From: an uncultured Planctomycetota bacterium
Lineage (GTDB): Bacteria > Planctomycetota > Brocadiia > CAIUPP01
NCBI GenBank assembly: GCA_903901045.1
Contig: CAIUPP010000078.1
Span: forward strand, 1-36,553
Reading direction: 5' to 3'
Length of the DNA stretch: 36,553 bases
The position numbers and the translations under genes are program-made. Numbering within the stretch: position 1 is the stretch's first letter; the number at the start of each line of letters is the position of its first letter. The notes below the pieces were generated by a model, which searched no databases, was not told where the DNA came from, and saw nothing but the letters and a program-made list of their open reading frames with translations. Below, piece after piece: positions 4,447 to 30,171 of this stretch.

Positions 4447-4500
4447 TGATTGGATACAGGCGTAAATTCGGTGGGGAAGGCAACTTGTGAGGAATGGCCC

Positions 4501-7277: not shown

Positions 7278-7292
7278 GCGGGAGAATCCAGC

Positions 7293-7757: not shown

Positions 7758-7770
7758 AAGCTGCCGCGCC

Positions 7771-9045: not shown

Positions 9046-11765
9046 TGGTGGCCACGCTCCACATAGACGGCGCGGCGTACTCGGTGAAGGAGGGGCAGAA
9101 TCTGCTCCAGGCGTGTCTGTCGCTCGGGTTCAATCTCCCCTACTTCTGCTGGCACCCGGCGATGCATTCCGTGGGAGCGTGCCGGCAGTGCGCGGTGAAA
9201 CAGTTCAAGGACGAGAAGGACACGCGTGGAAAAATCATCATGTCATGCATGACCCCCGCAACGGAGGGCATGCGCATCTCCATCGAGGACCCGGAGGCGC
9301 GGGCGTTTCGCGCGGGGGTCATCGAGGCGCTCATGGTCAACCACCCGCATGACTGCCCCGTCTGCGACGAGGGGGGCGAATGCCATCTTCAGGACATGAC
9401 CGTCATGACGGGGCACGTCTGCCGCAGGGCGCGCGTCCGGAAACGGACCCACCGCAACCAGGATATGGGACCGTTCGTCAACCACGAGATGAACCGCTGC
9501 ATCGCCTGCTACCGGTGCGTGCGGTACTATCGGGAGCTTGCGGGCGGGCGCGACCTGGACGTGTTCGGCTGGCATCATCACGTCTACTTCGGACGCCAGG
9601 TCGATGGTCCGCTGGAGAGCGAGTTCAGCGGCAACCTGGTGGAGGTCTGCCCGACCGGCGTCTTCACGGATAAGACGCTCAAGGGGCACTACGCCCGGAA
9701 GTGGGACCTGCAGACGGCGCCTTCGGTCTGCGTTCATTGTTCGCTGGGATGCAACACGATTCCCGGCGAGCGCTACGGGGAATTGCGCCGCGTCCGGAAC
9801 CGTTTCAACGAGGAGGTCAACGGGTACTTCCTCTGCGACCGGGGGCGATACGGGTATGAATATGAGAACAGCGATTTGCGATTGCGCCACCCCCTGCGCC
9901 TCGGCGCGGAGGGACCGCGTCCGATTCCGTCCGCGGAGGCCGTGAGTTACGTGGCCGGACTGCTTCGCAACGGGGGGAGAGTCCTGGGCATCGGCTCGCC
10001 GCGCGCGTCGCTGGAGGGGAATTTCGCGCTGCGCGCGCTGGTCGGCGCGGGGCGTTTCTTCATCGGCTGGCCGGAACGGGAGCGCGCTTTGGTCACGACG
10101 GCGCTCCGGCTGTTGCGCGAGGGGGCGATTCGGACCCCCTGCCTGCGCGAAGTGCGGGAAGCGGACGCGGCGCTGGCGCTGGGGGAGGACGTTTCAAATA
10201 CCGCGCCGATGCTCGCCTTTGCGCTTCGGCAGTGCGCCATGCAGAGAAAGATCAAGGTGGCGGCGGCGTTCGGGATTGCGCCATGGGACAGCGACGCCGT
10301 GCGGCTGGTCGGGCAGGATGAGAAGAGCCCGATCTTCATAGCGACGCCCTGCGGCACGCGGCTGGACGACATAGCGACGCGGCTCTGGCGCGCCGCGCCG
10401 GAGGAGATCGCCCGGCTGGGATTCGCCGTGGCGAAAGCGTTGGACCCGGACGCGCCGGAGGTCCCCGACCTGTCGGACGAGGCGAAATCTTCGGCGCGCG
10501 ACATTGCGGCGGCGCTCAGGGAGGCGGAACGCCCCGTGGTGGTTTCCGGGACGGGGGCGGGCAGCCCAGCCGTCCTGGAGGCGGCGGGCGCCGTCGCCGC
10601 CGCGCTGCGCCGCCTGGGACGCAACGTCCAACTCTCTCTCGTGCTGCCGGAATGCAACAGCGCGGGCGCGGCGCTTCTGGGAGGCGGCAGTCTCGCCGGG
10701 GCGCTGTCGGAAGTCCGGAAGGGGCAGGTGGACACGCTGATCATCCTGGAGAACGACTTGTATCGCAGGCTGAACGCCGAGGCCGCCGACGCGCTGCTCG
10801 CCGGGGTGAAGCACCTCATGGTCCTCGACCACCTGGCGAACGCGACGACGGCGAGGGCCGAGGTGGCGCTGCCATGCGCCACGTTCGCCGAGAGCGAAGG
10901 AACCCTGGTGAGCCAGGAAGGGCGCGCGCAGAGGTTCTTCGCCGTTCATCCCGCACGCGGCGAGGTCCGGGAAAGCTGGCGCTGGCTGCGCGAAATCGGC
11001 ATGGCCGCCGGGCAGTCCGAAATGGCGGCCTGGCAAACCACGGACGACCTCATCCAAACGTTGTCACAGGAGCCCGGTTTGAGCGGAGTGAAGGAGGCCG
11101 CTCCCGGCCGGGAGTTCCGCGCCGCGGGGCAGAAGATTCCGCGTCAGCCGCACCGATACAGCGGGCGCACGGCGATGGGAGCCGACGTAAGCGTTCACGA
11201 GCCCCCGCCCCCGGAAGACCGGGATTCCCCGCTGGCCTTCTCGATGGAGGGATACCAGGGCCAGCCGCCGGCGGCGTTGGTTCCCCGATACTGGGCGCCG
11301 GGTTGGAATTCGGATCATGCGCTTAACAAGTTCCAGGGCGAAGTGGGAGGGGCGGTGCGCGGCGGCCCCGCCGGAGTCCGGCTGATCGAGCCGGCGGCGG
11401 ACGCGCCGGCGCGCTATGCCGCCGAAATCCCGCCCCCCTTCCAGCCTGCGGAGGGGCAATGGCTCGTGGTGGCGTTGCACCATGTGTTCGGGTCGGAGGA
11501 ACTGAGCGCCCATACGCCGGGTGTGGCGCAGTTGGCGCCCCGCCCCTATCTGGGGCTCAGCCCCGAGGATGCGCAGCGCTGCGGCGTTGGCGAGGGCGAT
11601 CCGGTGGAGTTGGCCGTCGGCTCCTCGGTGCAGCAGCTTCCCGCGCGGATCATCCCGGGCTTGCCCCGGGGCCTCCTCGGCCTGCCGGCCGGTCTGGCGG
11701 GAGTGAAAGTGGTTGAACTCCCCGCCGGTGGCAGAGTGCGAAGCGTGACGGGAGGGCCCCCATGA
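9045..11765 (+). CDS. nuoG: NADH-quinone oxidoreductase subunit G
   Basis: A 906-residue iron-sulphur subunit. The N-terminal ferredoxin domain binds N1b (Cys in PYFCWHP, GACRQC and MSCMTP). N5 uses the [12 protein letters not shown] region, and N4 uses RCIACYRC with the later [16 protein letters not shown] motif with a later FLCDRG cysteine shows that the extra N7 cluster site of molybdopterin-type domains is kept. The remaining 600 residues are a degenerate MopB-like domain. I prefer the ATG at 9045, in a TAATG overlap with nuoF and preceded by GGAG, because it begins VATLHIDG like known NuoG; an in-frame ATG at 9030 is the alternative. It overlaps nuoH by four bases. Confidence 0.94.
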
Positions 11766-12718
11766 GCGACACGGCGCGCAGCCTGGTCACGATCTTCGCC
11801 GTCCTCCTGGGCGCTTTGACGCTCGCGGGCGGCTTCATCTGGGTGGAGCGCAGGCTGCTGGCGCTGTTCCAGGAGCGCTGGGGGCCGAACCGCCTGGGGC
11901 CGCTGGGGTTGTTCCAGGGGGTGGCGGACATGATCAAGATTTTCATGAAGGAGGACTGGGTTCCCCCCTTCGCCGATAAGCCGGTGTTCGTGCTTGCGCC
12001 GATGCTGATCATGGTCACGACGCTCGCGTCGCTGGCCATCATCGCATTTGCGCCGGGGCTGGTGGTGGCGGACCTCAACATCGGCGTGCTCTTCTTCCTG
12101 GCGATGTCCTCGCTGGGAGTGTACAGCGTGGCGCTGGCCGGATGGGCCTCCAACAGCAAGTACGCGCTGCTCGGCGGGATGCGCGCGGTGGCGCAGATGC
12201 TGAGCTACGAGGTGTTCATGGGGCTGTCGCTGATGGGCGTGGTGATGATGGCGGGCTCGTTCCGGCTGACCGACATCGTGGCCGCGCAGAAGAGCCTCTG
12301 GTTCTGCATCCCGCAGTTGCCGGGGCTGGCCGTGTTTTTCATCGCGGGGGTGGCGGAGACGCACCGCTCGCCGCTGGACCTGCCGGAGGCGGAGAACGAG
12401 CTGGTGGCGGGCTACCACACGGAATATTCCGGAATGAAGTTCGCCCTGTTCCTGCTGGGCGAATACGTCGGCATGACGGTGGTTTCGGCGATGATCGTCA
12501 CGCTCTTTTTCGGCGGGTGGGCGGGTCCGCTCCTCCCGCCGGTGGTCTGGTTCCTCGTCAAGACGCTGTTCCTGATGTGCCTGTTCATCTGGCTGCGGGC
12601 GTCCTTCCCACGGCCGCGATACGACCAGTTGATGCTGTTCGGGTGGAAGGTGTTGCTGCCGGTGTCGCTGCTGAATCTGGCCGTGACCGGCGCCGTTCTG
12701 CTGGTCCGAGGCGCTTGA
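11762..12718 (+). CDS. nuoH: NADH-quinone oxidoreductase subunit H
   Basis: A 318-residue membrane subunit with about eight helices that joins the two arms of complex I and lines the quinone channel. The motif [18 protein letters not shown] and following [14 protein letters not shown], the loop [18 protein letters not shown], and the acidic [20 protein letters not shown] region are the classical NuoH signatures. The start ATG overlaps the nuoG stop by four bases and is preceded by GGGAGG. Confidence 0.96.
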
Positions 12719-12727
12719 GGATCTGAA

Positions 12728-13243
12728 ATGTTCAGTCTGTTCAAAGGCCTGTGGATCGTCCTGCGCCACGCGTTCGTCAAGCGCGTGACGGTGGAGTATC
12801 CGGAGAAGAAGCCGGTCCTTCCGCCCCGCTGCCGCGGCAGGATCATCCTGTCGCGCGACCCCGACGGCGGGGAACGCTGCGTGGCGTGCCACCTCTGCTC
12901 CGCGGTCTGCCCGGTGGCGTGCATCGCTCTCCAGGCGGCGGAGGATGCGCACGGGCGGCGGTATCCGAAATTCTTCCGCATCAACTTCTCGCGCTGCATC
13001 TTTTGCGGCCTGTGCGAGGAAGCGTGCCCGACGTACGCGATTCAATTGACCCCCGGTGTGGAGATGGGAGAGTACAAGAGGCAGCACCTGGTCTACGAGA
13101 AGGAGGACTTGCTGATCAGCGGCGTCGGGAAGTATCCCGGCTACAATTTCTACCGCGTGGCCGGGCTGCAGATCGAAGGCAAGGACAAGGGGGCGGCGGA
13201 GAACGAGCAGCCGCCGGTGGATGTGCGCGATTTGATGCCGTAG
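12728..13243 (+). CDS. nuoI: NADH-quinone oxidoreductase subunit I
   Basis: A 171-residue ferredoxin-like subunit with two [4Fe-4S] clusters, N6a and N6b. The ligands are in [16 protein letters not shown] and [16 protein letters not shown], both of the C-x2-C-x2-C-x3-CP type. The N-terminal amphipathic helix ([16 protein letters not shown]) anchors it against the membrane arm, as usual. It begins nine bases after nuoH. Confidence 0.96.
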
Positions 13244-13259
13244 GCATGCAGGGTAAAAA

Positions 13260-13775
13260 ATGGAGACCGTCTTTGACATATCGGCCGTCGTGGCGGTCGT
13301 GGCCACGCTCATGGTGATCGCGCAGTCGCGCGCGGTGCACGCGCTGCTGTACCTGACCGTGTCGCTGCTGGCGGTGGCGGTGGTCTTCTTCACGCTGGGC
13401 GCGCCGTTCGTGGCCGCGCTGGAGGTGATCATCTACGCCGGCGCCATCATGGTCTTGTTCGTCTTCGTCATCATGATGCTCAACCTCGGCGCGGAAGCGG
13501 CGCGGCAGGAGCGGCGCTGGCTCACCCCGGCAGACTGGTTCGGCCCCGCGATCCTGGGGGCCATCCTCCTGGCGGAGATGGTCTGGGTGCTGGCTTCCCC
13601 GCAGTCCGCATTTCCCGCGCCGGCGGCCAACGATCCGCGAGCCGTCGGCGCGGCTCTCTTCGGGCCGTACGTGCTGGTCGCCGACCTGGCGGCGCTGGTC
13701 CTCCTGGCGGGCCTGGTCGGGGCGTACCATTTCGGGCGGCGCAGCGCGGAAGCCGGGGAAGGAGAGGCGCCATGA
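13260..13775 (+). CDS. nuoJ: NADH-quinone oxidoreductase subunit J
   Basis: A 171-residue membrane subunit with five predicted helices. The motif [20 protein letters not shown] contains the pi-bulge helix (TMH3) implicated in coupling quinone chemistry to proton movement; it is intact here. The ribosome binding site before 13260 is weak (AGGG). The stop overlaps the nuoK start in an ATGA arrangement. Confidence 0.95.
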
Positions 13776-14077
13776 ACGTTCCCTTCCAGCACGCGCTCGC
13801 GCTGGCGGCGGCGCTCTTCGCGATCGGCCTGACCGGCGTGCTCATGCGGCGGAATATCGTGTTCGTCCTGATGTCCGTGGAAATCATGTTGAACGCCGCC
13901 GGGCTGGCCTTTGTGGCGGCCGGGGCGCGCTGGGGCCAGCCGGACGGTCAGGTGATGTTCCTGTTCATCCTGACGATGGCGGCGGCCGAAGTATCGGTGG
14001 GGCTGGCGCTGGTCCTTCAGTTCTACCACCGTTTCAAGACGCTGGCCACGGACGCGGCCGGCAAGATGAGAGGCTGA
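13772..14077 (+). CDS. nuoK: NADH-quinone oxidoreductase subunit K
   Basis: A 101-residue, three-helix subunit related to MrpC antiporter subunits. The glutamates in [15 protein letters not shown] and in [15 protein letters not shown] are the two conserved membrane carboxylates of the proton path. It overlaps nuoJ by four bases and is followed after one base by nuoL. Confidence 0.96.
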
Positions 14078-14078
14078 G

Positions 14079-15905
14079 ATGGCTGAGTTGCTCTGGCTCA
14101 TCCCGGCGTTGCCGTTCGCCGGATTCCTGGCGCTGGCGCTGCTCGGATCGCGGATGCCGCGACCCCTTGTGGCGACGATCGGCGCAGGGACCGTCGGCCT
14201 CTCGGCGCTGGCCGCGATTGCCGCGAGCCTCGCGCTGGCGGGGAGCGCCGGGGCGGAGGAGGGGATCACCCGGACTCTCTGGACGTGGATCAGCGTGGGA
14301 GGTTTCGCGCCGGCGGTCGCTCTCCGGCTGGACGCGCTGTCGGCGGTGATGACGCTGGTCGTGACGATCGTTGGCTTCCTCATTCTGCTCTACTCGACGG
14401 AGTTCATGGCCGGCGACGAGGGCTACAGCCGGTTCTTCTGCTGCATGGACCTGTTCGTCGGGGCGATGCTGACGCTGGTGCTCGCCGACGACCTGCTGCT
14501 GCTCTACCTCGGCTGGGAGGGGGTGGGGCTGAGCAGCTACCTGCTCATCGGCTTCTGGTACAAGGCAGAGGCGAACGTGCGCGCGGCGCGCAAGGCGTTC
14601 ATCGTCACGCGCGTCGGGGATACGGCGTTCGCCCTGGGGCTGGCGCTGATCGCGACGCAACTGGGCACGCTGAGGATTCAGGAAGTGGCGGAGCGCGCGC
14701 CGCTGTTCTGGGGGGCGGGGTCGGGGATGGCGGTCGCGGCGGCGGCGCTGATGCTGGGCGGAGCGCTCGGCAAGTCGGCGCAACTGCCCCTGCAGACGTG
14801 GCTGCCCGACGCCATGGCGGGGCCGACGCCGGTGAGCGCGCTGATCCACGCCGCCACGATGGTGACGGCGGGCGTCTACCTGATCGCGCGGATGCACGCG
14901 CTCTTTCTGCTCGCGCCGGTGGTGATGGGGGCGACGGCGGTGATCGGCGCGGCCACGCTGCTGATGGCCGGGCTTTCCGCCCTGACGCAGTCCGACCTGA
15001 AACGCGCGCTGGCTTACTCGACGATCAGCCAGGTCGGCTATATGTTCCTGGCGCTGGGGGTGGGGGCATGGTCCGCGGCGATCTTCCATTTCATGACGCA
15101 CGCGTTCTTCAAATCCCTCCTGTTCCTCGCGGCGGGCGCGGTGAGCATGCGGCTGCGCGGCGAGCATGACATGTTCCGGATGGGCGGCCTGCGCCGCGCG
15201 CTGCCCGGGGCGTTCTGGGCGTTTGTCATCGGCGCGGCATCGCTCTCGGCGCTGCCGATGGTGACGGCGGGGTTCTACAGCAAGGAGATGATTCTGGAGC
15301 GGGTGTGGTCTTCGCCGAGGGGAGCGGGATGGCTGTGGGCGGCAGGGCTGATCGGGGCGCTGATCACGGCGCTTTACGCCTTCCGCATGGTGTTCCTCGT
15401 TTTCTTCGGCGAGAAGCGGCAGGAGACGGAGGGGCGCTCGGGCGCGCGCGTGATGTTTCCGCTGGCGGCGCTGGCGGCGCTTTCGATTGGCGGGGGCTTT
15501 GTCCCGATGTCGCGCGGAACGTGGGAAGCTCACGCTTTGCCCCTGACACTGGCCGCGTCGCTGGCTTCGCTCCTGGGGATCGCCGGAGCGTGGTTCCTGT
15601 TCCACCGGCGAAGGGGGATGACGGAACGGCTGGCCGGTTCGCCCGCCGGCGCCCTGCTGCGGCGGTTCTGGGCGGGCGGATGGGGGTTCGATCAGGCGTA
15701 TGACGCGCTGCTCGTGCGCCCCTTCGTGCGCCTGACCCGGGCGAGCAGGGAGGAGTTCGCCGACCCGTACTCCAAGGGGGTGGCGCGGACGGCCGGAGCG
15801 CTCCACCACCTCCTCAGCCGCACGGTGACCGGGCAGCTTCGCTGGTACGCCATGGCGATTGCCGCCGGGACCATCCTCCTGATCGGAATGGCGGTGTTCC
15901 TATGA
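14079..15905 (+). CDS. nuoL: NADH-quinone oxidoreductase subunit L
   Basis: A 608-residue antiporter-like proton-pumping subunit at the tip of the membrane arm. The core helices carry LYLGWEGVGLSSYLLIGFWY (conserved Glu), GKSAQLPLQTWLPDAMAGPT (conserved Lys) and the HAATMVTAGVYLI segment. The C-terminal part after about residue 510 contains the long lateral helix region and final membrane helix. The length is close to E. coli NuoL (613). It overlaps nuoM by four bases. Confidence 0.96.
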   Translation: MAELLWLIPALPFAGFLALALLGSRMPRPLVATIGAGTVGLSALAAIAASLALAGSAGAEEGITRTLWTWISVGGFAPAVALRLDALSAVMTLVVTIVGFLILLYSTEFMAGDEGYSRFFCCMDLFVGAMLTLVLADDLLLLYLGWEGVGLSSYLLIGFWYKAEANVRAARKAFIVTRVGDTAFALGLALIATQLGTLRIQEVAERAPLFWGAGSGMAVAAAALMLGGALGKSAQLPLQTWLPDAMAGPTPVSALIHAATMVTAGVYLIARMHALFLLAPVVMGATAVIGAATLLMAGLSALTQSDLKRALAYSTISQVGYMFLALGVGAWSAAIFHFMTHAFFKSLLFLAAGAVSMRLRGEHDMFRMGGLRRALPGAFWAFVIGAASLSALPMVTAGFYSKEMILERVWSSPRGAGWLWAAGLIGALITALYAFRMVFLVFFGEKRQETEGRSGARVMFPLAALAALSIGGGFVPMSRGTWEAHALPLTLAASLASLLGIAGAWFLFHRRRGMTERLAGSPAGALLRRFWAGGWGFDQAYDALLVRPFVRLTRASREEFADPYSKGVARTAGALHHLLSRTVTGQLRWYAMAIAAGTILLIGMAVFL

Positions 15906-17371
15906 TCCTTGCGCTACTGATCATCCTGCCGCTCGCCGCCGGCCCGCTGGCGTGGCTGACGGGCCGTTGGAGCCGGTCGGCGCCGCGGTGGATATCCCTG
16001 GCGGCCATGGCGCTCGATCTGGCCCTGGCTGTTGCGCTCTGGATTCATGGGCCGATGGAGACGTCGTGGGGCTGGATTCCGCAACTCGGGATCGGATTCA
16101 CCCTCTCGCTGGACGGCCTGAGCATCCTGATGGTGGCGCTGACGGCGTTCCTCGGGGTCATAGCGGTGGCCGCCTCGTGGAAAGAAATCAAGGACCGCGT
16201 CGGGTTCTTCCACTTCAACCTCATGTGGACGCTGGCGGGCATCACCGGGGTGTTCCTCGCTTCCGATTTGCTCCTCTTCTACTTCTTCTGGGAGTTGATG
16301 CTCGTTCCGATGTACTTCCTCTTTCTCTGGGGGCAGGAGAAGCGTTCGGCGGCGGGGATGAAGTTCCTGATTTACACGCAGTCCAGCGGGTTGCTGATGC
16401 TGCTGGCGATACTGGTCCTGTACTTCATGCATGCAGGGGCGACGGGCGTCTACACGTTCGACTATGCGGCGCTGCTGCAAACGCCGGCGGCGGGACCGGC
16501 GGCGAATATGCTCATGTTCGGCTTCTTCATCGCGTTCGCCGTCAAGATGGGCGTGCCGCCGTTCCACGGCTGGCTGCCGGACGCGTACACGCACGCGCCG
16601 ACGGCGGGAACGCTGCTGCTGGCCGGGCTCATGGCGAAAACGGGGGCGTACGGGTTGCTGAGGTTCGTCCTGCCGCTCTTCCCAGAACAGGCGCTTCAGT
16701 TCGCGCCGATGGGAATGGCGCTGGGCGCGGCGGCGATACTTTACGGCGGGCTGATGGCCTTCTCGCAGACGGACCTGAAGCGCATGGTCGCGTACACGAG
16801 CATCAGCCACATGGGGTTCGTGCTCCTGGGAATATTCGCGCCGACCGCGCAATCCCAGCAGGGAGCGGTGATCCTGATGCTCGGCCACGGCGCGGCCACG
16901 GGCGCGCTGTTCGTGATGGCCGGCGCGTTGCAGGAACGGCTCGGGACGCGCGAACTGGGTCGCATGGGAGGCCTTTGGGAGACGGCGCCGCGCATGGGAG
17001 GGACGATGCTCTTCCTGGCGCTGGCGCTGATGGGGCTGCCGGGGACGGCGAATTTCATCGGCGAGTTCCTCGTGCTGGTGGGAGCATGGCGGACGAGCAT
17101 TCCGCTGGCGACCGTTGCGGCGCTGGGGATGATCCTCTCGGTGATCTATGCGCTCTGGATGATTCAGCGCGTCTTCCAGGGGCCGAACAGGGAGAACTGG
17201 AAGTTCCCCGACTTCTCGCTGCGGGAAACCGTTGCGGCGGCGGCGATGATTGGCGTCGTGCTCTGGATCGGCCTGTACCCGAAGCCGATTTCCACGGCGG
17301 CCGGGCCCGTTCTGGACCGCACGATGCCGCGCGCGGACCTCTCAGCGCAGGATGAAGGAGGGGAGCCATGA
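15902..17371 (+). CDS. nuoM: NADH-quinone oxidoreductase subunit M
   Basis: A 489-residue antiporter-like subunit with about fourteen helices. Conserved features include FYFFWELMLVPMYFLF (key Glu), KMGVPPFHGWLPDAYTHAPT (key Lys) and the KRMVAYTSISHMGFV segment. It is the second proton-pumping module and packs between NuoL and NuoN. It overlaps nuoL and nuoN by four bases on each side. Confidence 0.96.
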   Translation: MILALLIILPLAAGPLAWLTGRWSRSAPRWISLAAMALDLALAVALWIHGPMETSWGWIPQLGIGFTLSLDGLSILMVALTAFLGVIAVAASWKEIKDRVGFFHFNLMWTLAGITGVFLASDLLLFYFFWELMLVPMYFLFLWGQEKRSAAGMKFLIYTQSSGLLMLLAILVLYFMHAGATGVYTFDYAALLQTPAAGPAANMLMFGFFIAFAVKMGVPPFHGWLPDAYTHAPTAGTLLLAGLMAKTGAYGLLRFVLPLFPEQALQFAPMGMALGAAAILYGGLMAFSQTDLKRMVAYTSISHMGFVLLGIFAPTAQSQQGAVILMLGHGAATGALFVMAGALQERLGTRELGRMGGLWETAPRMGGTMLFLALALMGLPGTANFIGEFLVLVGAWRTSIPLATVAALGMILSVIYALWMIQRVFQGPNRENWKFPDFSLRETVAAAAMIGVVLWIGLYPKPISTAAGPVLDRTMPRADLSAQDEGGEP

Positions 17372-18795
17372 CGTTCCGCGACCTGCTCCCGCTGCTCCCG
17401 CTGATGCTCCCCGCGCTCACGGCGGTGGCAATTCTCTTGCTCCTGGCGTTTCATCGCAGCCATCGTTTGACGGCGTGGCTGGCGGCGGGAGGGCTGGCGG
17501 CGGCGCTCCTCCTGATCCCCTTCGCCTGCGAGGGCGCGCCGCGCCGCTTCGGGGCATTGTTGGTCGTGGATGGCTGCGCTCTCTTCTATACCGGGATCAT
17601 CATGGCGGCGGCGCTCGCCGTCGCGGCGTTCTCATACGGCTATCTGGCGAGGCGGCGCGGGCATGTCGAAGAATTCTATGTGCTGCTGCTCCTGGCGACA
17701 ACCGGCGGGGCTGTGCTGACCGCCAGCAGCCACTTCGCCACGTTCTTCCTCGGTCTGGAAGTGCTGACGGTAGCGCTGTACACGCTCATCGCCTATGAGC
17801 GCGGCGCATTCGGCATCGAGGCGGGCGTCAAGTACCTCGTTCTGGCGGCGGTTTCGACGGCGGCGCTGCTGTTCGGCGTGGCGCTGATCTACGCGGAACT
17901 CGGGACGATGGAGTTCAGCAAGATCGCCTCCCTGCTGGACGCGGGCGCGCCCGTGAGCCTGTTGATGCCGGCCGGCGTGGCATTGATTCTCGTTGGGGTC
18001 GGGTTCAAGCTGGCGCTTACACCGTTCCATCTCTGGGCGCCGGATGTGTACCAGGGCGCGCCTGCGCCGACGGCCGCGTTTCTCTCCACGGTGTCCAAGG
18101 GGGCGGTCTTCGCGGCGGCGATGCGCTACCTGGTCCCGCTGGACCTCCCGTCGCACCGCTCACTCTGGCTGGCGGTGGCGGCCCTGGCGGTCGTATCCAT
18201 GCTCGCAGGGAACCTGCTGGCGCTGCGGCAGGGGAACATCAGGCGCGTGCTGGCGTACTCCTCCATCGCCCACATGGGCTACCTGGCCGCCATGCTGCTG
18301 ACGGGCAGCCCGCTGGCCACCGCGGCGGCGATGTTCTACCTGCTGGCCTATTTCGTCACATCGCTGGGGGCGTGGGGAGTCATCGCGGCGCTCTCGGAGA
18401 AGGAAGGGGACGCCGAGCGCATCGAGGACTACCGCGGGCTGGCAGGGCGACACCCATGGCTGGCCGGCGCGCTGACGCTCATGCTCCTTTCGCTGGCGGG
18501 AATGCCGTTGACCGCCGGGTTCATCAGCAAGTTCTTCCTGCTGACCGCCGGCGTGGAGGGGCGGCTGTGGGCGCCGATGGCGGCGCTGCTGCTGGGGAGC
18601 GCCATCGGGATATTCTACTACGTGCGGATCATCGCCATGTTGTTTGCGCCGCAGGAGGACGCCCCGCCGGTCCGGGCGACGCACTGGGCGGCTGGCGCGG
18701 CAATCGGCGCGCTGGTTCTGCTTCTGATAGCGCTGGGAGTCTATCCCGCGCCCGTGCTGGCGATCATTCAGTCGCTGATCGCCGCGAGTTCCTGA
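17368..18795 (+). CDS. nuoN: NADH-quinone oxidoreductase subunit N
   Basis: A 475-residue antiporter-like subunit. FKLALTPFHLWAPDVYQGAP holds the conserved Lys, FLGLEVLTVALYTLIAY the conserved Glu, and RRVLAYSSIAHMGYL and AGMPLTAGFISKF are further family marks. GGAGGGGAG precedes the ATG, which overlaps the nuoM stop. It is the last gene of the operon. The next open gene is on the other strand, and the 104-base gap holds an inverted-repeat element. Confidence 0.96.
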   Translation: MTFRDLLPLLPLMLPALTAVAILLLLAFHRSHRLTAWLAAGGLAAALLLIPFACEGAPRRFGALLVVDGCALFYTGIIMAAALAVAAFSYGYLARRRGHVEEFYVLLLLATTGGAVLTASSHFATFFLGLEVLTVALYTLIAYERGAFGIEAGVKYLVLAAVSTAALLFGVALIYAELGTMEFSKIASLLDAGAPVSLLMPAGVALILVGVGFKLALTPFHLWAPDVYQGAPAPTAAFLSTVSKGAVFAAAMRYLVPLDLPSHRSLWLAVAALAVVSMLAGNLLALRQGNIRRVLAYSSIAHMGYLAAMLLTGSPLATAAAMFYLLAYFVTSLGAWGVIAALSEKEGDAERIEDYRGLAGRHPWLAGALTLMLLSLAGMPLTAGFISKFFLLTAGVEGRLWAPMAALLLGSAIGIFYYVRIIAMLFAPQEDAPPVRATHWAAGAAIGALVLLLIALGVYPAPVLAIIQSLIAASS

Positions 18796-21471: not shown

Positions 21472-22920
21472 TCAGGTCTTGCTCTGGTGGGGGCTTCGGA
21501 AGTCTTCTTTGCGCAGGCCGAACTCCTTCATCTTCTCGTAGAGCGAGCGCTCCTGAAGCCCGGCCCGTTTGGCGGCTTCTCCGATTCGCCCGCTCGTGGC
21601 AGTCAGCAGCCCCGCGATGTACTGCCGCTCCAGGTCGGTCACAAAAGCCTCGCGCACTTCGCGCAGCGGCTTGGCGAGCCATTGTTCCGGAAGCCGCAGG
21701 CGCTGCGCCGAATCCAGCGCGGGGCCCGCACCCACTACTCCCGCCACCGTCCCCCCGACGGACTCCGGCAGGTCGTCCAGGGTGATCTCCGTATCGTCGC
21801 AGAGCAGGATGGCGCGTTCGAGCACGTTGTTCAACTCCCGCACGTTCCCCGGCCAGGGATACCGGCACAGCGCCTGCATGGCCAGCGGGTTGACGCCCGT
21901 CACTCGCCGGCCAATTTCCCGGGCGATGTAGCGGATATGCCTGTCGACCAGGACGGGAATGTCGTCCCCTCGTTCGCGCAATGGGGGGACGGTGACCGTC
22001 ACGACGCTGAGCCGATGATACAGGTCCCTTCGGAAGCGTCCGGCTTCGACCTCCGGCTCCAGCGGGCGGTTGCTGGCGGCGATGACGCGGACATCCACGC
22101 CAAAGGACTTCTCGCTGCCGATGGGCTGCACCTCGTGCTCCTGGAGGACGCGCAGCAGTTTCACCTGGAGATGGAGAGGAATTTCCCCGACTTCATCGAG
22201 GAAGAGCGTGCCGCGGTGGGCGATCTCGAACCAGCCTCGGCGCGCCGCCGTGGCCCCGGTGAACGCCCCTCGCACATGGCCGAAGAGCTCGCTTTCCAGC
22301 AGATGCTCCGGCAACGCGCCGCAGTTCAGCGCGACGAAGCGCCCCGTGGAGCGCGGCCCCTCCGCGTGGATGGCGCATGCCAGGCGTTCCTTGCCTACGC
22401 CGGTCTCCCCCTCGATGAGCAAGGCCGTGTCGCTCCCCACCACGCGCGGCACCACGTTCATAAAGACGGCCATGCCGGGGCTCTTGGACACGAAGTCCGC
22501 CAGCCGCGGTTCCGCCAGCGGCTGAGGGGCGAAAAAGCGTTTCTGCGTCAGCCGCCGCCGTTTCTCCAACAGGGTTTCGATCACGTCGCGCACCTGCTCG
22601 ACCGCCAGACCGGCATACAGCACCGCGTCACACCCCTCCGCCAGGAGCCGCGCATGCACCTTGTAATCGGCGCTCTCGGAGAGCACAACCGCCGCGGGGG
22701 AATCGGGATGGAGCTGCAGCTCCCCCATCTTCTCTTTCAGCGGAGTCGGCAGAAGGGATTGGCTGATAATCAGCACGTCGGATGGCTCTGAAACGATCCG
22801 TTCCCAGAGGTTCTTGCGCGCCCGCGGCACCTGGACAAGGATGTCCGGGCGGGCCAGAAGATCCTGGAGCCGCTTGCCCAATACGGAGTCATGGACGGCA
22901 AGGGTGATTCGGATAAGCAC
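21472..22920 (-). CDS. Sigma-54 enhancer-binding activator with degenerate receiver
   Basis: A 482-residue NtrC-type transcription activator. Residues 1-115 have the outline of a response-regulator receiver, but the phospho-acceptor position holds Ser53 (DVLIISQSLLP) and the usual KP lysine is missing, so phosphorylation is unlikely. Residues 140-365 are the AAA+ domain: Walker A GETGVGKE (171-178), the sigma-54 contact loop GAFTGA (218-223), Walker B TLFLDE (238-243) and YPWPGNVREL. The C-terminus has a Fis-type helix-turn-helix (GRIGEAAKRAGLQERSLYEKM). The start is GTG at 22920 with a weak ribosome binding site. It is divergent from the collagen-like gene, whose promoter is of the sigma-54 type, so it is the obvious candidate activator. 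Confidence 0.93.
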   Translation of the reverse strand: MLIRITLAVHDSVLGKRLQDLLARPDILVQVPRARKNLWERIVSEPSDVLIISQSLLPTPLKEKMGELQLHPDSPAAVVLSESADYKVHARLLAEGCDAVLYAGLAVEQVRDVIETLLEKRRRLTQKRFFAPQPLAEPRLADFVSKSPGMAVFMNVVPRVVGSDTALLIEGETGVGKERLACAIHAEGPRSTGRFVALNCGALPEHLLESELFGHVRGAFTGATAARRGWFEIAHRGTLFLDEVGEIPLHLQVKLLRVLQEHEVQPIGSEKSFGVDVRVIAASNRPLEPEVEAGRFRRDLYHRLSVVTVTVPPLRERGDDIPVLVDRHIRYIAREIGRRVTGVNPLAMQALCRYPWPGNVRELNNVLERAILLCDDTEITLDDLPESVGGTVAGVVGAGPALDSAQRLRLPEQWLAKPLREVREAFVTDLERQYIAGLLTATSGRIGEAAKRAGLQERSLYEKMKEFGLRKEDFRSPHQSKT

Positions 22921-22960
22921 GGCTCGACCCCATCAAGGGATAGTGATCGGACCCCAATCT

Positions 22961-22989
22961 CTTATATCCCCCATCCATTCGGCTGTCAA
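22961..22989 (-). promoter_or_regulatory. Near-consensus sigma-70 promoter of the activator gene
   Basis: Read on the minus strand: TTGACA (22984-22989, six of six) then 17 bases then TATAAG (22961-22966, five of six). Transcription would start near 22954, giving a leader of about 34 bases to the GTG at 22920. The activator therefore seems to be made constitutively from the main sigma factor. Confidence 0.65.
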
Positions 22990-23040
22990 GGCCCGATTTT
23001 AGCCTTCCTTTCTGCAAGGTCACTGGACGCAAGAGGGACC

Positions 23041-23072
23041 CAACTGCTGGATGCCTATGGCGATAGGCATCC
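23041..23072. promoter_or_regulatory. Putative activator-binding site upstream of the collagen-like gene
   Basis: A perfect ten-base inverted repeat, GGATGCCTAT (23049-23058) and ATAGGCATCC (23063-23072), lies about 60 bases before the predicted transcription start. The block 23041-23067 matches 25675-25701 at 22 of 27 positions, and both blocks lie exactly 53 bases before the first base of a sigma-54-type promoter. This makes it a candidate enhancer site for the neighbouring activator. Confidence 0.55.
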
Positions 23073-23093
23073 GCCTCGGATTCGTTCACTCTG

Positions 23094-23109
23094 CGGCACG
23101 GCAAGTGCA
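23094..23109 (+). promoter_or_regulatory. Sigma-54 (-24/-12) promoter of the collagen-like gene
   Basis: CGGCACGGCAAGTGCA fits the consensus TGGCACG-N4-TTGCW at all but two of its twelve specified positions, with the invariant GG (23095-23096) and GC (23107-23108) at the right spacing. The start of transcription would be near 23120, about 42 bases before the preferred ATG at 23162. Confidence 0.65.
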
Positions 23110-23161
23110 TTGGGTGTACGGCTTGATAGTTCCTCCCCTACCCGGTTTGCGGAGAATGGAT

Positions 23162-25516
23162 ATGCAACGAGCAAGGACGCACTCGTTCTGTCTTGCGGTT
23201 GTGACGGTACTTTTCATGACCGTGATTGCGATGCCGTGGGCGATTGCCGAAACGCCCGTGAACAGCACGTTCTTCTATGAGGGGATCATGGCGGACCCCG
23301 GAATGCGCAGCGGGCAGTACGACATGCAGTTCAGCCTGTGGGACGCCGCCACAGGCGGAACCAGGATCGGCTCGAACGTTACCATTAACGACGTGGTGGT
23401 CGACAAGCTCACATTCCGAGTGCAGTTGGATTTCGGTATGTCCCCGTTCGCCGGCAAGGCGCGCTGGATCGAGATCCGGGCTTCCAGACCTGGCGGATAT
23501 CGATTCACAGGTCCGCGCCAGCCCCTCTTGGCAGTGCCCTATGCTCTGTATGCGCTCAACAGCGCTGTGGGTGACAAGGGTGCGACCGGCGATAAGGGCT
23601 CAACGGGCGACAAAGGACCGACCGGCGCAACGGGCAACAAGGGGCCGGTGGGTGATGCCGGCGCCGCGGGTGCAATCGGTGACAAAGGGCTGACCGGCGA
23701 TGGCGGCGCAGCCGGCATTCAAGGTCCGACCGGCCCGACCGGTGCGTCCGGCGGCACGGGCGCGACCGGGGACAAAGGTGCTGCCGGCGACCAGGGTACT
23801 CAAGGTACTGTGGGCGATAAGGGTGCAACGGGTGACAAGGGCTTGGTCGGCGACCAAGGTGCGACGGGCGACAAGGGGCCCAGCGGCGATATGGCTCCAA
23901 CGGGGCCCGCCGGCCCGACCGGCCCTCAGGGCCTCAATGGAGCAACGGGCGCGCAAGGCATTCAGGGTGCGACCGGCGCTCCGGGCGCAACGGGTGCTCA
24001 AGGTCCGACCGGCGCGACAGGAATGGACGGTTCGACCGGTGCGGCCGGTGTTCCGGGCATCCAAGGCGTGACGGGCGCTCAAGGCCCGACCGGTGCCACG
24101 GGAGTCCAAGGTGAAACCGGTGCGCAAGGAGCGACCGGCGCTCAGGGTCCGACCGGATTGACGGGTGGGATGGGCGCCGAGGGCGTCCAAGGTGCGACCG
24201 GGCCACAGGGTATTCAGGGCGCAACGGGCGCGCAAGGTCCGACGGGTGTTTCAGGTGTCGATGGCGCGACAGGCGCAGTCGGCCCGACGGGCGCACAAGG
24301 TCCGACGGGTGCTTCAGGCATCGACGGCGCGACGGGCGCAGTCGGCCCGATCGGTCCGCAGGGCAATACGGGTGCAACGGGCGCGCAAGGTCCGACGGGG
24401 GCCACGGGAATCCAAGGTGAAACCGGCGCGCAGGGTGCGCTGGGTCTTCAAGGTCCGACGGGTGCTTCAGGTGTCGATGGCGCGACGGGCGCAGTCGGCG
24501 CTCAGGGCATCCAAGGTGCAACGGGCACCCAAGGCCCGACTGGCGCTTCAGGAATAGATGGTGCGACGGGTGCTCAGGGTCCGACCGGGCTGACAGGTGA
24601 GACCGGCGCTGAGGGCGTTCAGGGTGCGCCGGGTTCTCAAGGCATCCAGGGCGTAACCGGGCCGACCGGTGCGACCGGCGCGACCGGTGAAACTGGCGCG
24701 GTTGGCTCGGAAGGTCCGACTGGCGCTTCGGGAATCGACGGCGTGCCCGGCGCAACCGGTCCAACCGGCGCGGACTCGATCATGGCGGGTCCGGCAGGCC
24801 CCACCGGCCCGCAGGGAATTCCGGGCAATGATGGCGGCAACGGCTCGAACGGGTTGGATGGCGCGACAGGTCCCACCGGCCCAACCGGCGCGGACTCGAC
24901 CGTGCCGGGTCCGACAGGTCCCACCGGCCCGCAGGGAGTTCCGGGCAATGATGGCAGCAACGGCTCGAATGGGTTGGATGGCGCGACAGGTCCGACCGGC
25001 CCAACCGGCGCGGACTCGACCGTGGCCGGCCCAACAGGTCCGACCGGCGCCACGGGTCCGCAAGGTCCGGTCGGCGGCATCATTGCATTTGGATATTTCT
25101 ACGCGCTCATGCCCGGGGACAACGCGGCGACGGTTGCGGCTGGCGCTGCCGTAGAGTTCCCGCAGGATGGCGCGGCAAGTGGCGGAATCGTTCGAACCGG
25201 CACGGCAGGCCACCTCCTCAACAGCCAGTTCATCCTCCCCTCGATCGGAGTGTATGAAGTCTCATGGCAGATGAGCATCGACGAAGCCGGGCAGCTCGTC
25301 CTGGGGCTCGACGGCGTAGAGCAGCCCAATAGCGTGGCCGGGCGCGCAGCCGGAACGTCCCAGATCGTGAACCAGGTCTTGATCGCAACGACCGTAACGA
25401 ACTCCATCCTGACCGTCCGAAACCCCGCCGGAAATAGCACGGCTCTGACCGCGACGCCGCGCGCCGGTGGAGCCAGCCCTGTATCCGCGTCGCTCGTGAT
25501 CAAGCAAATCCAATAG
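23162..25516 (+). CDS. Secreted collagen-like protein with BclA-like C-terminal domain
   Basis: A 784-residue surface protein. A Sec signal (residues 1-30, ending PWAIA-ET) is followed by a domain (to about 136) of the kind [10 protein letters not shown]..., ending [16 protein letters not shown], common at the start of bacterial repeat-bearing surface proteins. Residues 137-638 are about 165 Gly-X-Y triplets, first rich in GDKG, later in GATGPT and GAQG; three GADS-V-[AP]G pieces break the triplet register. The last 145 residues ([17 protein letters not shown]... to SLVIKQIQ) look like the trimeric jelly-roll tip of Bacillus BclA. GGAGA at 23151-23155 favours the ATG at 23162 over 23156. Such proteins form trimeric stalks, often glycosylated on Thr. 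A sigma-54 promoter precedes it and a hairpin follows. Confidence 0.9.
24767..25075 (+). repeat. 120-bp tandem repeat inside the collagen-like gene
   Basis: Units starting at 24767, 24887 and 25007 repeat with an exact 120-base period; the third is partial. Each full unit encodes about forty residues beginning GADS, passing through [10 protein letters not shown] and [16 protein letters not shown]. The very high identity points to recent duplication or gene conversion. Confidence 0.75.
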
Positions 25517-25530
25517 AAGAGGCCGGCATT

Positions 25531-25562
25531 CCCGGAGTCCCGGAGCGTTCCGGGATTCCGGG
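25531..25562. terminator. Strong hairpin after the collagen-like gene
   Basis: A fourteen-pair stem (CCCGGAGTCCCGGA at 25531-25544 against TCCGGGATTCCGGG at 25549-25562, one G-U pair) with a four-base loop, starting fifteen bases after the stop codon. There is no T tract, so it may be an RNA 3'-end stabiliser rather than a classical terminator. Confidence 0.5.
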
Positions 25563-25674
25563 AAACTGGCAAAAGGGCGCTCGGCGCGCATCCCGTTGCA
25601 CTTCCGATTCGGTCGGATGTCCTGGCCCGATTGTGACCTCCTCAGTCCCGGGAAGATTGGGCCGAAGGTCGGCG

Positions 25675-25701
25675 CAACTGGCGGATGGCTATGGTGATGG
25701 G
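25675..25701 (+). promoter_or_regulatory. Putative activator-binding block, second copy
   Basis: CAACTGGCGGATGGCTATGG and the next seven bases match 23041-23067 at 22 of 27 positions without gaps. Its distance to the downstream sigma-54 promoter (53 bases) is identical to that of the first copy. A shared binding site for the activator at 21472-22920 is the simplest explanation. Confidence 0.55.
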
Positions 25702-25727
25702 ACCTATCCATAGAGGAATCCACTCCG

Positions 25728-25743
25728 CGGCATGACGTGTGCT
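25728..25743 (+). promoter_or_regulatory. Sigma-54 (-24/-12) promoter of the DUF3185 cluster
   Basis: CGGCATGACGTGTGCT keeps the invariant GG (25729-25730) and GC (25741-25742) at the correct spacing and matches TGGCACG-N4-TTGCW except at three positions. Transcription would begin near 25754, 68 bases before the DUF3185 start codon. Confidence 0.6.
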
Positions 25744-25821
25744 TTATGTTACGGAGCGATTGGGCGCGCTCGATAGCGCGCTAACGGGGCAAGGGCAGGA
25801 AAGGGGAAGGAGACCTCTTAT

Positions 25822-26031
25822 ATGAACAAGGCAATCTCACTGGCGCTTCTTGCCGGAGGAGTGGTGCTGCTGGTCCTCGGGATCAGAGCGGCGGACTCGC
25901 TGGGCTCGGACATCAGCCGCTTCTTCACCGGCTCACCCACCGACAAAGCGGTCTGGATGCTGATCATCGGCGTGGTGCTGTGCGTCGTCGGACTGGTGGG
26001 CGTGTTGCGCGGATCAAAAGCAACCACATGA
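25822..26031 (+). CDS. DUF3185 family small membrane protein
   Basis: A 69-residue protein with two membrane helices (about residues 5-23 and 44-63) joined by the polar loop [21 protein letters not shown], which is the hallmark of DUF3185. AAGGAGA at 25807-25813 is a good ribosome binding site. It is the first gene after a sigma-54-type promoter and is followed after 13 bases by a DUF1328 gene. The molecular function is unknown; members often occur near envelope-stress genes (recalled from other genomes). Confidence 0.88.
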
Positions 26032-26044
26032 AAGGAGCACAACC

Positions 26045-26209
26045 GTGCTGTACTACGCAGTGATCTTTCTGCTCGTGGCCCTGGTGGCCGGCGTTCTCGG
26101 ATTCGCCGGCGTCGCGGGCACGGCGGCCTGGATCGCCAAAGTTCTCTTCGTCATTTTCCTCGTGATGTTCGTGATCGCACTGGTGACGCACACCCGGCGG
26201 AACGCGTAG
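26045..26209 (+). CDS. DUF1328 family small membrane protein (YtjA-like)
   Basis: A 54-residue protein from a GTG start with AAGGAG at 26032-26037. It is almost wholly two membrane helices: [19 protein letters not shown], then [20 protein letters not shown], ending in a basic tail THTRRNA. This matches the DUF1328/YtjA family (about 53-60 residues). Function unknown; it probably shares a transcript with the DUF3185 gene just upstream. Confidence 0.88.
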
Positions 26210-26255: not shown

Positions 26256-26804
26256 ATGAGTAAAACACTGATCGCGTTCGCAGTCGTGATGGCGCTGTCC
26301 CTCGGCATGGCGGCGTGCAAGGAAAAGACTACTTCCGAAGCGGTATCCGACTCTGCCAAGTCGGCCGGACAAGCCACCAGTGACGCCGCGAAGGCCGCGG
26401 GCAACGCCGTTGGCGACGCCGCAAAGACTGCCGGGAACGCCGTTGGCGAAGCGGCAAAGACCACGGGGAATGCCGTTGGCGACGCCGCAAAGGCCACGGC
26501 CGACTACGTGGCTCCTACCAAGGACGCGGCCGTGAAGACCGCCCAGGAAACTCTCGACAAGCTCGACAAGCAGTGGCAGGAGTTGCAGGCCAAGGCCGCG
26601 CCGGCCACCGCCGAAGCCAAGGCGGATTTCCAGAAGGCCAAGGATCAGATGAGCGCCGCCTTCGCCGAAGCCAAGGCGAAGCTCGTCGAAGCCAAGGATG
26701 CCAGCGCCGACGCCTGGCAGAAGAATGTCAAGCCCGCGCTCGACACCGCCGTTGCGAAAGCGCAGAAGCTCTATGACGACGCGGCGGCCAAGTTCAGCAA
26801 ATAG
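26256..26804 (+). CDS. Probable lipoprotein with LEA-like 11-residue repeats
   Basis: A 182-residue exported protein. The signal sequence leads to Cys21 (GMAAC), a plausible though imperfect lipobox. Residues from about 33 to 87 are five eleven-residue repeats of the type AAKxAGNAVGD, the periodic Ala/Lys/Gly/Asp pattern of group 3 LEA proteins and of amphipathic surface helices. The rest is a charged, Ala/Lys-rich helix (likely coiled coil) without aromatic core. GGGAGA at 26244-26249 supports the start. It lies 46 bases after the DUF1328 gene and may belong to the same sigma-54-controlled transcript. A role in protecting or spacing the envelope during water loss is inference. Confidence 0.8.
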   Translation: MSKTLIAFAVVMALSLGMAACKEKTTSEAVSDSAKSAGQATSDAAKAAGNAVGDAAKTAGNAVGEAAKTTGNAVGDAAKATADYVAPTKDAAVKTAQETLDKLDKQWQELQAKAAPATAEAKADFQKAKDQMSAAFAEAKAKLVEAKDASADAWQKNVKPALDTAVAKAQKLYDDAAAKFSK

Positions 26805-26852: not shown

Positions 26853-27413
26853 ATGATAGCGCACAAGAGCACAAGCGTAATGAGTTCGTTGCGGAACAGC
26901 CGCGGCTGGACGATTCCCGCGTTGATGGTGGCGATGCTGCCGATCCTGGCGGGCGGCTGTTACGGCGGTTTCCCGTTGACAAAGAAGATCTACGAGTTCA
27001 ACGGGGAGATTTCGCGCCACAAGATCATCCAGACGGTGACGTTCTGGGTCTTCATCATCATCCCGGTCTACGGGATTGGAATGCTCGCCGACGCGATCGT
27101 CTTCAACCTGGTCGAGTTCTGGACCGGCGACAAGCTTCTTTCGGTCGGCCCGATTACGGACATCAACGGAAATACCACCTGCCTGACGCCATCACCGGAT
27201 GGCCGGCAGGCGGTGTTGACCGTGTCGCGCAACGGGAAGGTGCTGGCGCAGGAGTTCTTCGTGAAGGTGTCCGACACGACGTTCGAGGTGCGGGACGCCC
27301 ACGGGACGCTGCAGGGCAAGGTGCTGAAATCGCCGGATGGCGCCATCAGCCTGACCGACCGGAACGGCGCCGTGGTGCGCACGCTGCCGGCGGGCGCCCT
27401 GGCCGCGATGTGA
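26853..27413 (+). CDS. DUF3332 family envelope protein
   Basis: A 186-residue protein with an N-terminal hydrophobic segment ending ILAGGC (lipobox-like), then GGFPLTKKIYEFNGEIS, a second membrane helix TVTFWVFIIIPVYGIGMLAD and the motif VFNLVEFWTGDK. These match my memory of DUF3332, proteins of unknown function in Bacteroidetes and other diderms. The C-terminal half is a small beta-rich domain. AAGAGG at 26841-26846 supports the ATG at 26853; an ATG at 26880 is an alternative. It lies 48 bases after the LEA-like gene. Confidence 0.82.
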   Translation: MIAHKSTSVMSSLRNSRGWTIPALMVAMLPILAGGCYGGFPLTKKIYEFNGEISRHKIIQTVTFWVFIIIPVYGIGMLADAIVFNLVEFWTGDKLLSVGPITDINGNTTCLTPSPDGRQAVLTVSRNGKVLAQEFFVKVSDTTFEVRDAHGTLQGKVLKSPDGAISLTDRNGAVVRTLPAGALAAM

Positions 27414-27642: not shown

Positions 27643-30171
27643 ATGAAGACTGCAATTGCGATTGTGATGACATTGACTTTGGCGATGGTCTCGCTCCGGG
27701 CGGCGACCGCGGCAGGTCCGGACCCCGTTAACTTGGGTTCGACTTCCCATTTCGCGATTCTGTCCGGCGCCGCGATCACCTCTACTGGCGGCGGCATTAT
27801 CAACGGAGACATCGGCGCCAGTCCGATCGCCGGGTCTGCCATAGGCATTCCCCCGGTTCAAGTGAACGGAACCATCTATGAGGTCGACGCCACCGGGACT
27901 GCCGGTCCGAATGTAGTGATTGACCCTACCTTGCTGACGGCGGCCAAGGGGGATTTGACCATCGCGTACAACGACGCCGCCGGGCGAACTCCCGTGCCTT
28001 CGGGAAGCTTCCTGAATCCCAACGACGGGAACATCGGAGGGCTGAACCTCGCCCCCGGCCTCTACAAGTTCACGACCACGGCTTTGATCACGGGGTCGGA
28101 CGTTACCCTCACGGGTGGTCCGGACGATGTCTGGATCTTCCAGTGCGCGCAAGACCTTCAACTAGGCAGTGGAAGGCAAGTCATCCTGGCCGGCGGCGCG
28201 CTGGCGAAGAACATCTTCTGGCAGGTGGGCACTTCGGCGGTCCTGGGCACCTCCTCCATCTTCAAGGGGACCATTCTGGCTGACCAGTCCATCACGATGA
28301 TGAGCACCAGCACGATGGAAGGCAGAGCACTGGCGTTCAGCGGCCAGGTTGCGTTCGACGGCACCGGCGGCACTCTGCCGGCCTTCAATCTGACGGTCAC
28401 CGGCGGAACGGGAAGCGGCCAATATCCCGCCGGCGCGCTCGTGCCGGTCATCGCCACGATCCCGGTCGGGCAGGTTTTCGACGCGTGGAACGGCGACACC
28501 CAGTACCTGGGCGACCCGGCATCCGCGTCAACGATCGTCACCATGCCCCTCAATGACGTTGCGGTCACAGCCACCTTCATCGACGCGCCGCCCGAGACGT
28601 TCACGTTGACCGTGGTCAACGGCACAGGCGGCGGGGCGTACCTCCCCGGGGCGACAGTCCCCGTCGTCGCCGTCATCCCGGTCGGACAAGTCTTTGACAC
28701 GTGGGCCGGCGATATAGCCTACCTGGCCGACGCGACGTTCGCGTCAACCATCGCTACGATGCCCGCCGCCAACATTCTGGTGACGGCCATCTTCAAGGAT
28801 GCGCCCCCCTCCACCTATACGTTGACGGTCGTTAACGGCACAGGCGGCGGGGCGTACGCTTCCGAGACGGTCGTCCCCATCGTCGCCGTGGTTCCGGCTG
28901 GACAGGTCTTCAGCGCGTGGACCGGCGACACGATTTATCTGGCTGACCCGACAGCTGCGTCAACCACCGCCACGATGCCCGAAGCCAATATCGTGGTAAC
29001 CGCCACCTTTACGGAGGCGCCGCCGGAAACCTTCACGCTGACGGTCGTCAACGGCACGGGGGGCGGCGCGTACGTCGCCACAACGATAGTTCCCATTATC
29101 GCCGTTGTCCCGGCGGGTAAAGTCTTCGAGATGTGGGCCGGCGACATCCTTTATGTGGCCGACCCGACCTCCGCGTCGACCACCGTCACCATGCCCGACG
29201 CCAACATCACCGTGTCGGCCATCTTCACCGACATGCTGGGCGATGGCGACATGTTCCTCGCCGAAATGGACTGCACCATCAACTGGGCCAGTCACGCCAA
29301 GAATGTCGACGGGGACAGCCTCTCCGTCAGCGGCCGGATCAACCCGCGCGGAGCCAATCATAATCTGAGCGGCGCCACGGTGACGCTCATCGTCAACGAC
29401 GTGCAGTTGATTCCCGCCGTTCCGCTGGGCACGCGCGGCAGCGCCCGCGGCCACGTCGCCTACACAGTCCAGTTCGACTGGTTGAGCGGCGCGTACTCCT
29501 TCATCGTGAGGGGGCTTGATTTGCGCGCGGCGACCGGCGCACCGAACGTGACCGGCAGGACGCTCCTGAATCTGCCCATGAGCCTGTCGATCCAAACCGC
29601 GGGCCTGGATATTCCGCTGGTGGCGGGGACGTTCGAGTGCCCCTGCGCGACCACGGCCGGCAAGGCCTCCCGAATCACTTTTAACAACAAGTCGAACCGC
29701 ACCCTCACCGGACTGTACCTGTGCACCACGACCCTGGTGCAGCAGCAGGGCAACGCCGAGCCGGGCGCCCAGGCTGCGCGGAGTGGCGCCGTACACAACA
29801 TCAAGGTGGAAGGTGTGATCGAGACGCTGGGCGGCGGGGCGGTAAATCCCACCGGCGACATTACGGTCAAGCTCGGTGATGCAACGCTGCTGATCCCGTT
29901 CGAGCAGATGTCCGAACGCGGCAGCGTCTGGTCCTACAAGGGAGCCGGCCCGGGCATTACCGGGTTCTCCCTGGACAACGGCAAGCACACGTTCTCCCTG
30001 TCGGCCTCCAAGGTGGAGGATACCGGCATCCCGCTCACGGGACAGGGCGCGCCGAAGTCGTACCGGCTCGATATCCAGTTGCAGATGCAGACCGAGGGTG
30101 GCGCGATGGGATTCGACAGCACTGTCGAAATCCTGCGGCCATTCAGCAGCGACTGGACCTGGAGGCGCTAA
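27643..30171 (+). CDS. DUF3494 'ice-binding' protein with InlB-type repeats
   Basis: An 842-residue secreted protein. A signal peptide (residues 1-27, ATAAGP) is followed by a DUF3494 domain to about 245 (LGSTSHFAILSGAAITSTGG, GDIGASP, LAPGLYKF, VWIFQ, KNIFWQVG, FKGTILA), a beta-helix fold that binds ice in several microbes but is widespread outside cold habitats. Residues 248-535 are four divergent InlB B-repeats (FTLTVVNGTGGGAY ... MPxANIxVTAxF), each 72 residues. The C-terminal 300 residues are two similar beta domains (about 545-660 and 700-830) that I do not recognise. The open frame extends to 27463, but GAGGAA at 27631-27636 and the signal peptide choose 27643. It is probably an adhesin or surface protein. 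Confidence 0.88.
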   Translation: MKTAIAIVMTLTLAMVSLRAATAAGPDPVNLGSTSHFAILSGAAITSTGGGIINGDIGASPIAGSAIGIPPVQVNGTIYEVDATGTAGPNVVIDPTLLTAAKGDLTIAYNDAAGRTPVPSGSFLNPNDGNIGGLNLAPGLYKFTTTALITGSDVTLTGGPDDVWIFQCAQDLQLGSGRQVILAGGALAKNIFWQVGTSAVLGTSSIFKGTILADQSITMMSTSTMEGRALAFSGQVAFDGTGGTLPAFNLTVTGGTGSGQYPAGALVPVIATIPVGQVFDAWNGDTQYLGDPASASTIVTMPLNDVAVTATFIDAPPETFTLTVVNGTGGGAYLPGATVPVVAVIPVGQVFDTWAGDIAYLADATFASTIATMPAANILVTAIFKDAPPSTYTLTVVNGTGGGAYASETVVPIVAVVPAGQVFSAWTGDTIYLADPTAASTTATMPEANIVVTATFTEAPPETFTLTVVNGTGGGAYVATTIVPIIAVVPAGKVFEMWAGDILYVADPTSASTTVTMPDANITVSAIFTDMLGDGDMFLAEMDCTINWASHAKNVDGDSLSVSGRINPRGANHNLSGATVTLIVNDVQLIPAVPLGTRGSARGHVAYTVQFDWLSGAYSFIVRGLDLRAATGAPNVTGRTLLNLPMSLSIQTAGLDIPLVAGTFECPCATTAGKASRITFNNKSNRTLTGLYLCTTTLVQQQGNAEPGAQAARSGAVHNIKVEGVIETLGGGAVNPTGDITVKLGDATLLIPFEQMSERGSVWSYKGAGPGITGFSLDNGKHTFSLSASKVEDTGIPLTGQGAPKSYRLDIQLQMQTEGGAMGFDSTVEILRPFSSDWTWRR
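28384..29247 (+). repeat. Four tandem 216-bp repeats in the ice-binding-like gene
   Basis: Equivalent codons fall at 28384, 28600, 28816 and 29032, an exact 216-base period encoding 72 residues each. Units 2-4 are most alike (VNGTGGGAY is identical in all three); unit 1 has diverged (VTGGTGSGQY). Confidence 0.85.

Follow-up and report, generated by a model that had tools for sequence, protein, structure and literature searches.

A probable small sigma-54 regulon joining a collagen-like gene and a DUF1328 operon to a divergent activator in an uncultured Planctomycetota bacterium

In this work, we have analysed a contig of an uncultured Planctomycetota bacterium (the window: 36,553 nucleotides, the whole of contig C78 in a 4.77-Mb genome of 154 contigs that is 94% complete), and we propose that it probably carries a small local sigma-54 regulon, in which an enhancer-binding protein (EBP) would bind the dyad TCGG-N10-CCGA and activate a collagen-like gene and a DUF3185-DUF1328-LEA operon, possibly extended by DUF3332. 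The EBP, encoded at 21472-22920, most likely recognises this dyad, whose first base lies 116 bp upstream of the -24 GG in both promoters of the window, and the bound EBP, together with RpoN, would switch on the collagen-like surface protein along with the envelope/stress operon. In a phylum with few well-characterised sigma-54 regulons, this one would provide an activator, a binding site and a set of targets that can all be tested, and would place a collagen-like surface protein under one switch with DUF1328, DUF3185 and LEA-like envelope proteins. What we say about the host genome as a whole is based on pattern and model searches.

The activator and the genes of the window

The gene at 21472-22920 (reverse strand) is an uninterrupted frame, as the initial annotation had it, and codes for 482 aa comprising a receiver-like N-terminal domain, an AAA+ core and a Fis-type helix-turn-helix (HTH). 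Its start codon is GTG, and the orthologues begin at the same position. The domain matches are Sigma54_activat (E 8e-64), the AAA lid and the Fis-type HTH_8 (E 2e-6), and both the Walker A motif GETGVGKE and GAFTGA are present; judged by these sequence features, an AAA+ domain with Walker A and GAFTGA followed by a Fis-type HTH, the protein classifies as a sigma-54 EBP. The rpoN gene, whose presence the initial annotation had wanted checked, is intact in the host genome, with all three domains. Assignment to a named EBP failed throughout: the equivalog cut-offs of NorR, NifA, NtrC, AtoC and others were missed (best NorR, 331 vs 476 bits), as was that of the PEP-CTERM response regulator PrsR (TIGR02915; 281 vs 503 bits).

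In the structure model the AAA+ core was poor, so the N- and C-terminal parts alone were used. The N-terminal domain is modelled as a receiver fold, an alternating (beta-alpha)5 arrangement over residues 3-130 with pLDDT mostly 79-89 up to residue 120, and a structural search returned NtrX, NtrC1, FleQ and VpsR among the fold matches. The Response_reg profile did not match the window EBP and matched two orthologues weakly (that of L010 below the cut-off). At the end of strand 3, where the phospho-acceptor Asp of a receiver is expected, the window EBP has Ser/Gln and the family is variable; the fold is thus that of an NtrC-type phospho-response regulator but the acceptor Asp is missing. Since the receiver-like domain lacks the acceptor, the activity of the EBP is probably set by an input other than phosphorylation. 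The EBP gene has a probable sigma-70-type promoter of its own, TTGACA-N17-TATAAG (22961-22989, reverse strand), and its GTCAA and TATA spacing are seen again in several orthologues.

On the forward strand, domain matches identify the genes that had been named downstream. The collagen-like protein (23162-25516) has 784 aa, with collagen repeats and a separate C-terminal globular part; it had been called a stalk protein, a label that nothing we observed backs. It is followed by the DUF3185 (25822-26031) and DUF1328 (26045-26209) small membrane proteins, an LEA-like lipoprotein of the sll1863 type (26256-26804) and a DUF3332 protein (26853-27413), whose gene is probably the last of an operon of predicted extent. 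Directly 3' of it lies a gene for an Ice-binding-like (DUF3494) protein with InlB-type repeats (27643-30171). Elsewhere in the window, a Complex I (nuo) operon (5529-18795) codes, after NuoL, for two proton-antiporter-type subunits of the NuoM/NuoN kind. The host genome has another collagen-like gene (contig C123; 7224-9815 of locus L272, reverse strand; 863 aa), and its upstream region is without a matching enhancer/promoter unit.

Two related promoter units

The two -24/-12 promoters of the initial annotation, CGGCACGGCAAGTGCA (23094-23109) and CGGCATGACGTGTGCT (25728-25743), both on the forward strand, are GG-N10-GC elements in a -24/-12 context, and both depart from the consensus in their -12 element. 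Across the genome, the loose consensus GGCAYRN5TGCW is no more frequent than its reversed control (49 matches vs 53), and the case for the promoters therefore rests on their context, not on the motif alone.

Upstream of the -24 element the two units are identical at 85 of 150 positions without a gap, a similarity wider than first reported. Identity is gathered in islands: the TCGG-N10-CCGA dyad (15/18), a 27-bp block (22/27) and the promoter (19/27). The block (copy 1, 23041-23067; copy 2, 25675-25701; forward strand) stands in the same register before each promoter, as had been described, and none of about 200,000 random pairs of 27-mers from the window reached 22/27. Its distance of 53 bases holds from start to start, the gap itself being 26 bp. 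The matched spacing had been read as a sign of one regulator; the similarity is indeed beyond chance, but the spacing itself is best explained by descent, through duplication of one intergenic segment rather than two independently arranged sites.

A duplication also allows that the second unit is a functionless, decaying copy of the EBP intergenic region, which would account for the residual similarity outside the islands (40/92, above random with p about 0.002) and for what is left of the EBP -35 region in copy 2, where these surroundings (TCGGATGTCctGGCCCGATT) are retained yet there is no EBP gene to serve. We consider this very unlikely, because identity clusters in the dyad, the block and the promoter, whereas the -35, which has no use there, is gone, and because in two relatives (L218 and L219, below) a sigma-54 promoter stands before the DUF1328 operon itself.

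TCGG-N10-CCGA occurs exactly twice in the window, each time starting 116 bp upstream of the -24 GG of a promoter; about 1.3 dyads are expected in the whole window by base composition, and it is therefore their position that counts, not their number. Candidate enhancer 1, TCGGCTGTCAAGGCCCGA (22979-22996), overlaps the -35 in the probable promoter of the EBP gene, which suggests that binding of the EBP should also limit its own expression. In candidate enhancer 2, TCGGATGTCCTGGCCCGA (25613-25630), the dyad is kept and the former -35 has decayed.

The initial annotation overlooked the dyad and took the enhancer of this EBP to be the 27-bp block, a choice we now regard as unlikely. In its favour are the identity of 22/27 in the same register, the palindrome of copy 1, which is perfect as claimed (GGATGCCTAT-N4-ATAGGCATCC, 23049-23072), and the 9-bp remnant TAWGGYGAT, which is kept in relatives; this core (TATGGCGAT at 23056-23064, TATGGTGAT at 25690-25698) precedes the promoter by 38 bp in the window and L218 and by 36 bp in L230. 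However, the palindrome is missing from copy 2 and from the relatives, the core is missing from most family loci whereas the CGG dyad crosses phyla, and the block, centred only some 35 bp ahead of the -24 element, is near for an enhancer. The block is not a common repeat: it was found in the host genome at these two places only, and a sequence model of both units found no third site there (next E 0.1). The block pattern with one mismatch gave scattered matches in 392 genomes, none of them near an orthologue and many of the coding type GATGGNGATGG. The block core may be a site for another factor or for a second EBP dimer, and on the sequence evidence the TCGG-N10-CCGA dyad is the better enhancer candidate.

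Support for the dyad comes from the EBP family, in which word counts revealed the motif and exact palindrome scans, locus by locus, did not. Counting intergenic words with no prior motif, we found ATCGGA in 13 of 21 planctomycete loci (4.0 expected) and TCGGTA in 7 of 9 mainly Desulfobacterota loci (0.3 expected), both compatible with a dyad CGG-N10-CCG. With the half-sites fixed and the gap g varied, TCGG-Ng-CCGA peaks at g=10 only (8 sites in 6 loci, 0.63 expected), a gap chosen post hoc, after the sequences had been viewed. Only 6 of the 32 family loci have the exact dyad, and none of 56 other EBPs has it upstream; it recurs in EBP family members of other phyla.

A composite search for dyad plus promoter gave matches at about control level in other genomes, and 6 against 0 in the control in the host genome. 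Two of these are the window's own; the others lie in the second collagen gene (C123), within a different EBP-like frame (C87), at C120:77566, which is a gene border where the promoter is weak, and at C120:93886. Among the matches in C123, in C87 and at C120:77566 no other convincing pair was recognised, with C120:77566 kept as a possible one. At a shorter distance the composite search gave control-level matches, and the two of the host genome fall in long open frames.

The EBP family and its divergent operons

The family loci were taken from named genomes (fifteen), from one genome of the same class and from 25 further planctomycete genomes reached by protein search. At a score of 13.5 or more, 23 of 32 family loci have a -24/-12 site divergent to the EBP gene, and none of the 32 has one on the same strand; at a threshold of 13.9 the divergent site is found in 21 of 32, vs 14 of 56 other EBPs (Fisher p 3e-4). 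L218 and L219, whose EBPs are 77% and 76% identical to that of the window, have an intact intergenic region and promoter, and their divergent operon codes for DUF1328 and the LEA-like lipoprotein, the genes of the second unit of the window; L218 also has a DUF3185 relic ahead of DUF1328. Comparison with relatives, which the initial annotation had recommended, thus connects the EBP with a sigma-54 promoter divergent to its gene and with the DUF1328/LEA operon. These results also bear on the idea that the promoters are genuine but driven by a different EBP of the host genome, where there are at least five further EBP matches. We think this improbable: in this EBP family, divergent EBP genes and promoters of this kind have stayed paired, and L218 and L219 have the identical operon partner. 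The link of both units to the window EBP, first put forward as a conjecture, is now well supported on these two grounds.

The simplest history suggested by these sequences is an ancestral layout in which the EBP gene faced the DUF3185-DUF1328-LEA operon and the intergenic region was then duplicated, with the collagen gene placed between the copies; no intermediate stage was seen among the relatives. The orthologue of L220 (83% identity) has an upstream region without a divergent promoter, and with DUF3332 as the anchor gene no similar cluster or block was found in relatives. In L221 (G233:C252; 71% identity) the EBP orthologue is broken close to its N-terminus, and a transposase-like gene adjoins the break. 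In L218, two -24/-12 promoters stand in tandem before the DUF1328 operon, 40 bp apart and each after TCATCYGCTCCG; their distances from the start of the EBP gene are 175 bp and 215 bp.

Other family members face other genes. In L010, L080, L222, L224, L229, L230, L233 and L235 the first divergent gene beyond the sigma-54 promoter region codes for a lysine/proline/alanine-rich microprotein of 28-49 aa ending in PKR (TKR in L224), followed in L222, L224, L229 and L230 by a secreted protein of ~110 aa with no Pfam match where tested. In the Desulfobacterota locus L087 the divergent operon (1246-5252, reverse strand) codes for AdoMet decarboxylase-like, GNAT, ATP-grasp and Orn/Arg-type decarboxylase proteins, which would make up an unusual pathway, polyamine-like or peptide-like, governed by this EBP family; L086, L088, L089 and L093 have similar proteins. 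In L228 and L085 the divergent gene after the sigma-54 promoter codes for an Hsp20-like protein just under the Pfam cut-off. The Phycisphaerae locus L081 has a second EBP of the same family and decarboxylase-like genes beside the EBP (1222-2661 and 8165-9919), named by eye as pyruvoyl arginine decarboxylase-like and carboxynorspermidine decarboxylase-like.

We tentatively suggest, as a possibility we would not yet favour, an undescribed EBP family, present in Planctomycetota, Desulfobacterota and further phyla, whose receiver-like domain works independently of phosphorylation. Its members would bind CGG-N10-CCG and switch on a divergent operon, the content of which has been swapped between lineages (PKR-ending lysine/proline-rich microproteins, the AdoMet-decarboxylase/decarboxylase operon, Hsp20-like, or DUF1328/LEA plus collagen). 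This family-level pattern could outrank the single locus in interest, and if the family-wide dyad is true, the targets of the activator would be predictable in several phyla.

Comparison with known sigma-54 systems

What is known of similar regulators? In the literature searched, whose coverage is partial, we found neither this EBP family nor DUF1328 under sigma-54 control described. FleQ and VpsR are EBPs whose receiver-like domain is not a normal phospho-switch and whose ligand is c-di-GMP. Both are among the structural matches of the window EBP and share with it a receiver-like N-terminal domain, AAA+ core and HTH, although its targets differ. The NtrC/NtrX-type response regulators have the same overall domain order and fold but differ at the acceptor Asp position. 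The NifA enhancer is TGT-N10-ACA; three-base half-sites and a 10-base gap are common to both, whereas the window has CGG-N10-CCG.

In Desulfovibrio vulgaris Hildenborough, EBP genes are often divergent from or adjoin their own sigma-54 promoter, and most EBP regulons comprise one to four operons with inverted-repeat binding motifs (PMC4641369). The divergent layout of the window is thus ordinary in Desulfovibrio, and the small regulon and inverted-repeat motif are also alike, but the recurrent half-sites there are TGT/ACA (PMC4641369) and those of the window CGG/CCG. Terms for polyamine or AdoMet decarboxylase targets were not found in that report (PMC4641369). Francke et al. (2011, PMC3162934) describe sigma-54 as controlling the bacterial exterior, in an article that mentions neither Planctomycetes nor collagen. 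The surface targets of the window match this published theme, into which its surface protein, lipoprotein and small membrane proteins all fit.
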